Origin: a virus
IMG/VR virus record: IMGVR_UViG_3300050133_000036
Location: 1 to 33,238 of that record
Length of the DNA stretch: 33,238 nt
Strand: one strand, 5' to 3'
The notes below the pieces were generated by a model, which was not told the DNA's origin, ran no database searches, and was given only the letters and a program-made list of their open reading frames with translations. How positions within the stretch are numbered: the first letter of the stretch is position 1; each line of letters opens with the position of its first letter. The translations under genes were made by a program, and so were the position numbers. Positions 19,852-23,593 of this stretch are shown one piece after another.

Positions 19852-20058
19852 TTACTTAACATCTGGTATTATTTTAGTACCTTTGCTTAACACACATAGT
19901 TCTGGTCCACTATCACCTAGCAACATACCGTACATACATTTGGATACATCATTTGTTCCAGGTGTATATCCTTTGTAATCTACTGGTGCTCCATTCCCAT
20001 ATCGCCATTGTCCATCTATATATTTTATTACCTTGCCATCCTTCATTGCAGTTTCCAT
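19852..20058 (-). CDS. small protein of unknown function, first late gene
   Basis: 68 residues from ATG 20058, preceded by AAGGGGG; the upstream ATG at 20124 has no such site. Sequence METAMKDGKVIKYIDGQWRYGNGAPVDYKGY..., with a motif MLLGDSGPELCVLSKGTKIIPDV at the end that recalls small beta domains. It is the first gene after the early-late terminator, so it probably leads the late transcript. No family recognised. Confidence 0.6.
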   Translation of the reverse strand: METAMKDGKVIKYIDGQWRYGNGAPVDYKGYTPGTNDVSKCMYGMLLGDSGPELCVLSKGTKIIPDVK

Positions 20059-20164
20059 AATATCAACCCCCTTAATATATTTAAATAGAAAAGGAACATT
20101 CATCTTTGAACATTCCTCTGTCACTCTATTGCCTTTATATTTAGTTATTATATTTACAAATGCA

Positions 20165-20198
20165 AAAGTGCACCTCCAATATGTTTGAGGTGCACTTT
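20165..20198 (-). terminator. strong terminator at the early-late boundary
   Basis: A perfect 12-bp stem (AAAGTGCACCTC / GAGGTGCACTTT) with a 10-base loop, followed on the minus strand by TTTGCATTTG; it may work in both directions. It separates the late-regulator gene from the late genes, so late transcription must start between it and 20058 or read through it. Confidence 0.8.
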
Positions 20199-20277: not shown

Positions 20278-20757
20278 TTAAATATTTATTTTTTCAATCC
20301 TTAGTCCTCTTTCTAATGCAAATATATCTCTTGCCTGTCTTAACCCTCTATATATAGACCGTTCACTTAAGTGTATTTCTGTTTCAGCAATGCATACTCT
20401 ATTATGGATATCGCCTTTTATAAGTTCTTTATCGGAATTTTTAAAGTAAACAAACTCAATTGCTTGTACAATGCTTCGTCCTGATCCGTATCTCATTACC
20501 TCTAATTGTTTAAGAGTTATTTCAATAGCCTCCATATCTTTTACTTCAGCTATTTTATCATTCACCGCTTTTTCAGCTTCTAACAATGCTGATTCCGTTG
20601 GACTTCCTTGACTACCTTTTGTTTGAACTTCTCTTCTTCTTATTGTTTCCAAGGCTTCATCATATATTTGTCTTTTATATTTTTCTGCTGATTTACCATT
20701 TTTAGCATAAAATCTAAATGCTGCCGTTGCATAATCTCTTATATAATCTTTCAACAT
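20278..20757 (-). CDS. ArpU/sigma-like late transcription regulator
   Basis: 159 residues. A central segment (LKQLEVMRYGSGRSIVQAIEFVYFKNSDKELIKGDIHNRVCIAETEIHLSERSIYRGLRQARDIFALERGL) has the layout of ArpU-like and sigma-70 region 4-like phage regulators: helices, then a helix-turn-helix near the C-terminus. Such genes occur just before the late operon in Gram-positive phages and activate it. The start has GGAGGTATA upstream and touches the preceding stop. Confidence 0.7.
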   Translation of the reverse strand: MLKDYIRDYATAAFRFYAKNGKSAEKYKRQIYDEALETIRRREVQTKGSQGSPTESALLEAEKAVNDKIAEVKDMEAIEITLKQLEVMRYGSGRSIVQAIEFVYFKNSDKELIKGDIHNRVCIAETEIHLSERSIYRGLRQARDIFALERGLRIEKINI

Positions 20758-20978: not shown

Positions 20979-21815
20979 TTACTCAAACTTTTCTGCTATT
21001 TTCATAAGCTCGTCCTCAGTTTTTCGTGTGTAAATCCTAGTTGTATTTATGTCTGTATGCCCTAACAGGTCGGCTAACTCATCTATTGTAATATTTCTTT
21101 CTCTAATGCATACAAGTGCATATAAATGTCTAAAATTATGAGCATGAGCACGTGATAACTTTACTTTGGCTTTTCTTGCATACTTTTTTATAATATCATT
21201 TACTGTAAATCTACTAATAGGACCATGTACACCAGTGAATAATAAACTACTTGTTTGTTTTCTCTTAGATTGATATTGATTTAAACATTTGTTTAATTCC
21301 ACAGGAATTATGACTCTTCTTTCTTTTGAACCTTTACCCAAAATAAATATCTTCTTTTTACCTACATCAGAAAGTCTAAACTGTATTAGCTCGCTCACTC
21401 TCATACCTGTAAGATATAAAGTTTTAAATATTGCAACTGCTCTATAATCATTTGCCCTTTCTGCAACTCCAAGTAATTTCTTATAGTCTGTCATTGTAAG
21501 CATTTCTTGTAAGTATTCCTGACTTTGTACTTTTTCATTTTTAAAGGTAATATCTAAATTTATTGCTTTATAAGTATTTAAAAACTTGATAAATCGATTA
21601 ATTGCAGTAAGTTTTCTATTTATTGTCTTTGCTTTAAATTCTTGTTTTCTTAACCATGCTTTAAAGTTTAAAATATCTGTACTTTGGATAGAGAGTATAT
21701 CTCCAGAGATGAATTCAATTAGTTGATTAATATCTGATCCATAAGTTTTAACTGTATTTATACTTTTTTCATCTTCTAGCATTTCAAACTGAAATTCTTC
21801 TAAGTAACTATCCAT
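20979..21815 (-). CDS. tyrosine recombinase, second of a tandem pair
   Basis: 278 residues. Residues 1-90 are an SAM-like core-binding domain. The catalytic set is complete: Arg139 (TGMRVSEL), Lys161 (GKGSKERRV), His226 and Arg229 (HNFRH), His253 (LLGHTD) and Tyr262 (RIYTRK). Start ATG with AAAAGGAGGGAAA. Size and lack of an arm-binding domain resemble XerC/D-type enzymes more than lambda Int. It may integrate the phage, resolve dimers or invert DNA. It lies 174 bases downstream of a second recombinase. Confidence 0.92.
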   Translation of the reverse strand: MDSYLEEFQFEMLEDEKSINTVKTYGSDINQLIEFISGDILSIQSTDILNFKAWLRKQEFKAKTINRKLTAINRFIKFLNTYKAINLDITFKNEKVQSQEYLQEMLTMTDYKKLLGVAERANDYRAVAIFKTLYLTGMRVSELIQFRLSDVGKKKIFILGKGSKERRVIIPVELNKCLNQYQSKRKQTSSLLFTGVHGPISRFTVNDIIKKYARKAKVKLSRAHAHNFRHLYALVCIRERNITIDELADLLGHTDINTTRIYTRKTEDELMKIAEKFE

Positions 21816-21989: not shown

Positions 21990-22985
21990 TTAAGAAATTC
22001 TTCTAACTTCGTGTTGAATATTTTCTTGACTTAATTCTGCATAAATCATTGTAGTATCAGCTGAGGAATGTCCCATTAAATTTTGTAATATTGGTAATGG
22101 CATACCTGCATTTAAGTTATGTGTAGCAAAACTATGCCTAAATAGGTGAGGAAAAACTGGCTTGTCAAAGTTTGCAGCTTTAGCAATTTTATTAATCGAA
22201 CATTCTATTGCTCTACTTCCGATTCTTTGGAACGGAAATCTTTCACTTATAAATAATGCATGATTTATACCTTTTCTATTTTTGATATATTTTTTCAATA
22301 AGATTTTAGCTTTTGTAGTAAAATATACTTTTCTTTCTTTTTTGCCTTTTCCAATTACAAACAAACTCATTTCATGAAAATCAATTTGATCTATATTAAT
22401 GCTTATAGTTTCTGATAGTCTGCATCCAGTACTAACTAAAAATTCTACGAGTGCCTCATCCCTGTCCTTGGTACAAACTTGTCTTAAATTCTCTACTTCT
22501 TCATCTGATAACGGATGCCTTAGTACTTTTTGAACTTTTGTTTGCTTAAGTTTTGATGTTGGATTTTTAGGTATATATTCTTCTTCAAACAGCCAACCGA
22601 AAAAGGATTTTAAAACAGATATTTTTGTATTAGTACTTGTAGCCTTAAGATTTTTACATCGTACTGCTAAAAACATTCTTAGGTCCATAGTATTTACCGT
22701 TGCTAATGGCTTTCTGATATAATTAGCGAATATTTGTAAGTCTTGAGTATAACTTTTTAATGTAATTTCACTTAACCCATCTAATCTTTTACAACTAATA
22801 TAAATTTGTATCTTTTGAGGCGCATCTGATGTTACAAGTGCTGTTTCTGTTGATGTTATTTCATATTTATAAAGCACCATTTCAGCAATTTTTCTAACTT
22901 TTAATTGATCTATGTCCGGAAATTCAAGCGTTAATTTTCCAACTAGCTTGATTATTACTTCATCTTTTGCATTATCTGTATTCAT
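21990..22985 (-). CDS. tyrosine recombinase, first of a tandem pair
   Basis: 331 residues. An N-terminal extension of about 55 residues precedes the core-binding domain (about 60-145). The catalytic residues are Arg189 (TGCRLSET), Lys213 (GKGKKERKV), His280 and Arg283 (HLFRHSFATH), His306 (MGHSSADTT) and Tyr315 (MIYAELS). It is Xer-like. The start has GAGGAGGAAATT upstream. Its leader contains a perfect palindrome (23010-23039) and faces a possible antisense RNA. It is only moderately similar to the recombinase downstream, so this is not a recent duplication. Confidence 0.92.
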   Translation of the reverse strand: MNTDNAKDEVIIKLVGKLTLEFPDIDQLKVRKIAEMVLYKYEITSTETALVTSDAPQKIQIYISCKRLDGLSEITLKSYTQDLQIFANYIRKPLATVNTMDLRMFLAVRCKNLKATSTNTKISVLKSFFGWLFEEEYIPKNPTSKLKQTKVQKVLRHPLSDEEVENLRQVCTKDRDEALVEFLVSTGCRLSETISINIDQIDFHEMSLFVIGKGKKERKVYFTTKAKILLKKYIKNRKGINHALFISERFPFQRIGSRAIECSINKIAKAANFDKPVFPHLFRHSFATHNLNAGMPLPILQNLMGHSSADTTMIYAELSQENIQHEVRRIS

Positions 22986-23009
22986 AATTTCCTCCTCTGT
23001 TTTTTAAAG

Positions 23010-23039
23010 GAGATATATGGTATAATTTTCATATATCTC
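23010..23039. promoter_or_regulatory. perfect 10-bp-arm palindrome in the recombinase leader
   Basis: GAGATATATG, 10 bases, CATATATCTC. The centre contains GGTATAATTTT, a consensus extended -10 box on the plus strand. It lies 25 bases upstream of the first recombinase start codon. It could be an operator, an RNA hairpin in the leader or a recombinase site. Confidence 0.65.
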
Positions 23040-23090
23040 AGTAATGGGATAAGAGAGTTAACAGTTGTCAAGGCTTGGACTCTCTTTTTT
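23033..23090 (+). ncRNA. candidate plus-strand small RNA facing the recombinase leader
   Basis: TGGTATAAT at 23018-23026 on the plus strand is a perfect extended -10. About 60 bases further on, AAGAGAGT (23051-23058) and ACTCTCTT (23079-23086) form an 8-bp stem followed by T residues to 23090, an intrinsic terminator oriented for the plus strand. The two signals define a transcript of about 58 nt with no reading frame of note. It would be antisense to the 5' leader of the first recombinase mRNA. The -35 region is poor, so a regulator or weak expression must be assumed. Confidence 0.38.
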
Positions 23091-23095
23091 ATTAT

Positions 23096-23593
23096 CTAAA
23101 ATTTCATATCTTTTCTCATTATTTCAAACAATGTGGTATTATAAAGTTTACCGTCTAATAATTTATTGCTATTGGTATATATGCCGACTATGCGACCGCC
23201 ATATTTATTTATAAACCTTCTGTACATTAACTCAGGTTCTCCACCAGTAAATGCACAAAATTCAAATTTACTAGCGTTATATGTGTCTCTTAAGTTTCTT
23301 ATAAAATTCATTAGATCCTTAGAAAATGTAATATTGATCTTTTTAGTGAAATTCATTATTCCAAAACAACTAATCACCCTGCTATCTCTATCAATATCTG
23401 CCGCCATATATCCTATTAAATTATTACCAGTATCTACTGAAACCATTTGTATTTTCCAACAATCATCATTTGCTAGTTGAAAAGTAAATGTCCTGAAAGA
23501 ATTTGAAATGTAAAATTTAAAGTGGTCGTCACATATAGCTTCAAGGTATTTCCTTTTTAATTTTTCTTCATACAATATTGCTTGTTTTAACAT
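23096..23593 (-). CDS. possible GNAT-fold protein
   Basis: 165 residues from ATG 23593, which has AAAGGAGTAAAG directly upstream (earlier in-frame ATG has none). The order of elements, N-terminal helices, TGNNLIGYMAADIDRDSRVISCFGIMNF strands, then FAFTGGEPELMYRRFINKYGGRIVGIYTNSNKLLDGKLYNTTLFEI, resembles phage GNAT acetyltransferase-like proteins, whose ends often read YGFRxVG...LxDGxxYDxxLFEI. No clear acetyl-CoA binding Q/RxxGxG/A motif is seen, so it may be inactive or another fold. It lies upstream of the recombinase pair. Confidence 0.5.
   Translation of the reverse strand: MLKQAILYEEKLKRKYLEAICDDHFKFYISNSFRTFTFQLANDDCWKIQMVSVDTGNNLIGYMAADIDRDSRVISCFGIMNFTKKINITFSKDLMNFIRNLRDTYNASKFEFCAFTGGEPELMYRRFINKYGGRIVGIYTNSNKLLDGKLYNTTLFEIMRKDMKF

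Follow-up and report, generated by a model that had tools for sequence, protein, structure and literature searches.

We sought to explain what a promoter and a terminator pointing along the plus strand are doing in the leader of a recombinase gene that is itself read from the minus strand. The arrangement occurs in a virus sequence of 33,238 nucleotides (IMG/VR record IMGVR_UViG_3300050133_000036, hereafter the window). The original prediction had proposed that the two signals frame a small RNA antisense to the recombinase leader, and that the -10 element lies in a palindrome at which a bound protein could switch both directions. It had also placed all genes of the region on the minus strand, which agreed with what we found for the main and large open reading frames.

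Plus-strand signals upstream of the recombinase

The gene behind the leader (recombinase 1) was recognized as a 331-aa tyrosine recombinase by its Phage_integrase domain (Pfam, 2e-35), by PDB matches that were XerC/XerD-like, and by an invariant catalytic R-K-H-R-H-Y set (R189, K213, H280, R283, H306 and Y315). Downstream of it in the window lie a second tyrosine recombinase (20979-21815) and then packaging genes, and in genome G094 a sigma-70 region-4-like gene comes after the recombinase. This gene neighbourhood places the proposed switch close to the early-to-late gene change, in terms of its site and not of its timing. The element itself lies in the gap bounded on one side by the recombinase Shine-Dalgarno (SD) sequence and on the other by the upstream open reading frame, which ends at 23096.

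Table 1. Positions in the window of the antisense signals, the leader parts and the target gene.
Feature	Position	Strand	Basis
Extended -10 TGGTATAAT of antisense promoter	23018..23026	+	sequence; hexamer at matching place in 22 relatives
Predicted antisense RNA, about 58-62 nt, inferred start	23032..23090	+	folding and comparison
Intrinsic terminator hairpin, 20-nt loop with conserved GTTGTC motif, T-run	23051..23090	+	sequence and covariance model
Tyrosine recombinase 1, 331 aa, Xer-like, target gene	21990..22985	-	domain, residue and structure matches
Shine-Dalgarno AGGAGG of recombinase	22991..22996	-	read in sequence
Arm B, mRNA 5' arm of palindrome, predicted to mask arm C	23030..23039	-	sequence and leader folds
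Arm C plus CU, with anti-SD CUCCU (23012-23008)	23008..23019	-	sequence and leader folds
First stem-loop of recombinase leader, mirror of antisense terminator	23051..23086	-	leader folds

Both plus-strand signals were present as originally described, the extended -10 exact to the base and the terminator with its 8-bp stem formed by AAGAGAGT (23051-23058) and ACTCTCTT (23079-23086) and a T-run reaching 23090. The palindrome was likewise confirmed, with arms GAGATATATG (23010-23019) and CATATATCTC (23030-23039) that are 100% complementary and enclose TATAAT in a 10-nt loop. In the 22 relatives with a hexamer at the matching place, it read TATAAT, TATACT or CATAAT. A transcript with putative ends near 23032 and 23090 would be about 58 nt long; folded over about 23033 to 23092, it gave a z of -3.6 and two hairpins, a better fold than all 200 shuffles. 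The antisense promoter and terminator lie inside the target leader with full complementarity, as a matter of anatomy, and, taken with the comparison below, this sequence very likely constitutes a gene for an antisense RNA of about 60 nt. A consensus promoter and terminator scan of the window did not list the element, since its -35 is poor (2/6) and the terminator pattern does not allow for a loop as long as 20 nt. Rfam returned no family at or above the gathering threshold for the whole window, and the best match within 22950-23150 was far below threshold. We also asked whether the terminator loop could recognize some other phage mRNA, and found no second match in the window.

Elsewhere, genome G084 carries a similar antisense module (L148:979-1549; TGTTATAAT, loop GTTATCTAGACGAG, T-run) directly upstream of a sigma-70 region-4-like gene, and no relative of recombinase 1 was found in that locus; the sigma-70 region-4-like gene is 85% identical to the gene that follows the recombinase in L158. 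The window also contains a 15-nt inverted repeat at 20165-20198 (93%; AAAGTGCACCTCCAA / TTTGAGGTGCACTTT, 4-nt spacer) between the minus-strand open reading frames 20278-20757 and 19852-20124. This repeat includes a core resembling an SD and may form a further leader structure.

Conservation of the element among recombinase relatives

A promoter-like string and a stem could coincide by chance in an AT-rich intergenic stretch; the consensus scan listed many promoter-like sites across this window, which is AT-rich. We therefore turned to relatives of the recombinase, drawn from genomes and viral contigs as well as from a set of 207 Clostridiaceae genomes. Counting distinct, complete leaders with a recombinase at least 55% identical, the -10/terminator pair was kept in 16 of 22 (the window, L001, L150, L154, L149, L175, L153, L023, L176, L156, L157, L026, L025, L158, L151 and L174). 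L155 had a degenerate form, and L172 was excluded from the count because its match lacked the N-terminus. The element was absent from the close relatives L002, L003, L022/L027, L152 and L177, and is therefore dispensable. Conservation of the pair, which the original prediction had itself named as a check that could refute it, stood in the majority of leaders and broke down in these few, so that the prediction was not refuted. Read opposite the gene, the leaders shared one order. A hexamer resembling TATAAT lies 35-54 nt ahead of the start codon and, across a short spacer, is followed by an 8-14 bp stem and then a T-run. The terminator began 17-32 nt past the reverse-strand -10 in most cases, and its loop in the relatives was mostly 15-19 nt.

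With a fixed automatic test, the pair appeared in 16 of 108 leaders irrespective of identity, compared with 0.65% of dinucleotide shuffles; L025, L158, L151 and L174 are not in this list, and the same test finds the pair there. As a control, we scanned 280 gene starts from these AT-rich loci, counting those of the recombinases, and just five matches fell on non-recombinase genes. The relatives are not independent, and combined p-values overstate the significance.

We further built a covariance model (R1) from five cleanly aligned loci, leaving the window out. R1 scored the window at 34.6 bits (E 3.8e-6), and its matches above 50 bits in the 207 Clostridiaceae genomes were exclusively antisense and just upstream of this recombinase. 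In an alignment of 15 sequences, which leans towards the stem because it was fitted to it, 97.3% of stem cells were paired and four pairs had changed on both sides (1 of 500 shuffles); sliding the stem partner gave pairing of at most 66%. The terminator loop GTTGTCCAGAC was also conserved. It is this conservation across relatives, and not the single sequence, that excludes chance; with the covariation and the controls also contradicting it, we find a coincidence scarcely credible. A search of viral contigs with the exact stem/loop pattern returned five stretches, one of them the L001 contig, although this pattern is loose and chance matches are possible. Weak R1 matches in Bacillales and in L145-L147 were dismissed, as they resemble ordinary terminators.

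The layout extended to more distant relatives with different stems, namely L160 (51% identity), L163/L165/L170/L171 (about 43%) and L092 (34%). L160 and L174 have one stem family in common, and L163/L165/L170/L171 share another. In L092 the whole layout recurs in unrelated sequence, with TGATATACT and a terminator whose stem is long; immediately upstream is a strong promoter for the sense strand (TTGATA-17-TGGTATAAT). Taken together, the conserved promoter, terminator, covarying stem and position strongly support, by sequence comparison, the originally proposed small RNA antisense to the recombinase leader, and we are confident that such an RNA would regulate this recombinase.

Several leaders differed in other ways. 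Genomes G105 (L151, L176) and G108 (L149, L174) each contain two recombinase copies with differing antisense stem/loop types, so that the two circuits would stay separate, which is suggestive only. The leaders of L028-L031, L046 and L173 have another inverted repeat of 8-10 bp (GAGAATGAAG..CTTCATTCTC or GAGAATAG..CTATTCTC) with no clear antisense terminator, which may be a simpler or decayed version. In L099 and L100, a sense-strand hexamer of -10 type precedes a strong stem-loop, roughly 50-150 nt in front of the recombinase; the stem-loop of L099 ends with a sense T-run and resembles a transcription attenuator. More distant relatives of this sort may use another kind of leader control.

The palindrome and the predicted leader switch

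The palindrome could in principle act as DNA. As an operator, bound by a repressor or by the recombinase, it would govern the promoters of both strands, much as originally suggested. Perfect 10-bp arms around a -10 would suit such a site, and the Bacillales relatives L038 and L039 show dyads of another type upstream of the recombinase, repeats of ATAAGTTATATAACTTAT near likely promoters, as for protein repression. The arms, however, differ widely between recombinases that are 57-74% identical and nevertheless stay complementary, their variation partly tracks complementarity to the SD, and the palindrome is single in the window even with three mismatches permitted. These observations, together with the anti-SD sequence that the 3' arm supplies as RNA and that the 5' arm would mask, speak against the protein-switch part of the original prediction, and we regard an operator as very unlikely. 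A pair of inverted arms, each about 10 bp and close to the gene of a tyrosine recombinase, is also usual for recombination core sites, and just such arms lie beside this gene, so that the palindrome might be the recombinase's own att or dif-like core site and the promoter and terminator features incidental. Against this, the arms vary and their spacing is not fixed (27-31 bp from GAGA to TCTC, with bulges), and in L163/L165/L170/L171 the leaders lack a comparable B:C palindrome while the antisense -10 and terminator remain. We consider a core site more improbable still.

On the mRNA, by contrast with these DNA readings, the palindrome is a hairpin of arms B and C, and the B:C duplex reached p <=0.01 against shuffles in 15 of 23 leaders. 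The end of arm C carries an anti-SD, which is CUCCU in the window's group, CCUCC in L151 and CUUCC-like in the L165 group, where the partner of arm C is the 5' arm of the first stem and not B. The predicted antisense RNA covers arm B except for its last base or two. In the mechanism that we propose, the plus-strand promoter within the palindrome would drive transcription as far as the terminator hairpin, giving an RNA of about 60 nt whose complementarity to the leader extends from that hairpin through arm B. As long as this RNA is missing, B:C pairing would keep the anti-SD of arm C concealed and the SD open. Once present, the RNA would pair with the leader, the conserved loops probably making the first contact; the sense loop GUCUGGACAAC is conserved and includes a YUNR motif, and YUNR motifs speed loop-loop pairing in plasmid antisense systems. 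Arm B would then be taken up, C would be freed to pair with the SD, and translation of the recombinase would be turned off. Production of the RNA, its binding, the repressive sign and the phase of the phage cycle are all points that we infer.

We compared folds of each leader alone with folds in which the part covered by the antisense RNA was blocked, a thermodynamic calculation that ignores the order of transcription. Mean predicted SD:C pairing rose from 0.30 to 0.69 on blocking, a change of 0.40 compared with 0.05 for shuffled C. The predicted switch was clearest in L025 (0.03 to 0.99), L151 (0.01 to 1.00), L158, L160 (0.02 to 0.99), L170 (0.00 to 0.95) and L092 (0.09 to 0.80), and mutually exclusive folds with the SD hidden on blocking were predicted in the window and in roughly half the relatives. 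In the window the value went from 0.70 to 0.99, that is, the free leader was already mostly SD-paired. The free leaders of L001, L026, L157, L149, L176 and L023 were predicted to be partly or fully closed already and showed no switch, nor was one seen in L095, L156, L150 and L155. Since these leaders lack it, SD switching may not be the common mechanism. The excess of SD switching in predicted folds is real over the set of leaders, whose members are not independent relatives.

The main rival to SD sequestration is a direct effect of the duplex, in which the antisense RNA represses through RNase III cleavage, transcript instability or direct hindrance of the ribosome. Full complementarity over about 60 nt and conserved loops fit this explanation, as do L095, L150, L156 and L155, which keep promoter and terminator where no SD switch is predicted. 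It accounts less well for an antisense RNA that ends within the palindrome and leaves the SD uncovered, and for B:C hairpins and C:SD pairing above chance over the set; we hold it to be unlikely, though clearly less so than the DNA readings. On the strength of the folds, SD sequestration on antisense pairing appears to be the best single mechanism, and the chances that repression runs specifically through it are about even. The broader reading, a cis-encoded antisense RNA gene together with a recombinase mRNA whose leader has two states, is probable.

Relation to known antisense systems and implications

The closest parallels are plasmid systems, among which RNAI of pSK41 (staphylococcal RepA_N plasmids) is an antisense RNA of about 83 nt to the rep leader, proposed to induce an RBS-sequestering stem-loop (PMC5703833). 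Both that RNA and the phage element are antisense to a leader, and hiding of the RBS or SD is proposed for both. They differ in that the target here is a phage tyrosine recombinase and not a plasmid replication gene, with no sequence relation shown; in pSK41 the RNA pairs some 100 nt ahead of the translation start region, whereas in the phage element the antisense promoter lies inside the switching hairpin. In pT181 (RNAI/repC) and pIP501 (RNAIII), the antisense RNA occupies a pre-emptor and a downstream stem-loop forms (PMC5703833). The pre-emptor corresponds to arm B, but the plasmid stem-loop is a transcription terminator, whereas the leaders that we read had no U-run after arm C and no intrinsic terminator of the pT181/pIP501 type in the sense leader. 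Because this U-run is missing, control would be translational, and sense-strand transcription attenuation was rejected. By analogy, the element would work like a plasmid antisense attenuator from outside those families, given its different target and the lack of a shown sequence relation.

Antisense RNAs are also known from other mobile elements. Asr9 of ISPpu9 is antisense to a transposase 5'-UTR and raises translation by opening the RBS (PMC8450116). It shares with the phage element the structured leader of a DNA-moving enzyme, in a fold that likely includes the RBS, but its effect is opposite to the repression predicted here, the enzyme class is different and there is no sequence relation. 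Among phages, P22 sar, P1/P7 c4 and lambda OOP have antirepressor, immunity or regulatory genes as targets, unlike the present element with its recombinase. These are short RNAs that pair with phage mRNAs, and the 2025 review of phage small RNAs that covers them makes no mention of an integrase or recombinase (PMC12197685). Our search of the open-licence literature found no antisense RNA on a phage tyrosine recombinase.

Antisense leader attenuation has so far come mainly from plasmid replication genes, and here we seemingly have a conserved and diversified version of it on a phage site-specific recombinase in many Clostridium phages and prophages. It is conceivable, though we give the idea little credence, that these RNAs serve as an incompatibility system between phages: the RNA of a resident prophage would act in trans to silence the recombinase of an incoming phage that shares its leader, and stem/loop diversity, with its two types in G105 and in G108, would represent escape, as with plasmid copy-control RNAs. 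If the antisense control is real, it would add an RNA layer over when phage recombinases act, and it would offer a defined RNA switch in Clostridia that can be tested quickly. It would also provide an annotation rule by which more such elements may be found, namely a reverse-strand -10 followed by a terminator in the leader.
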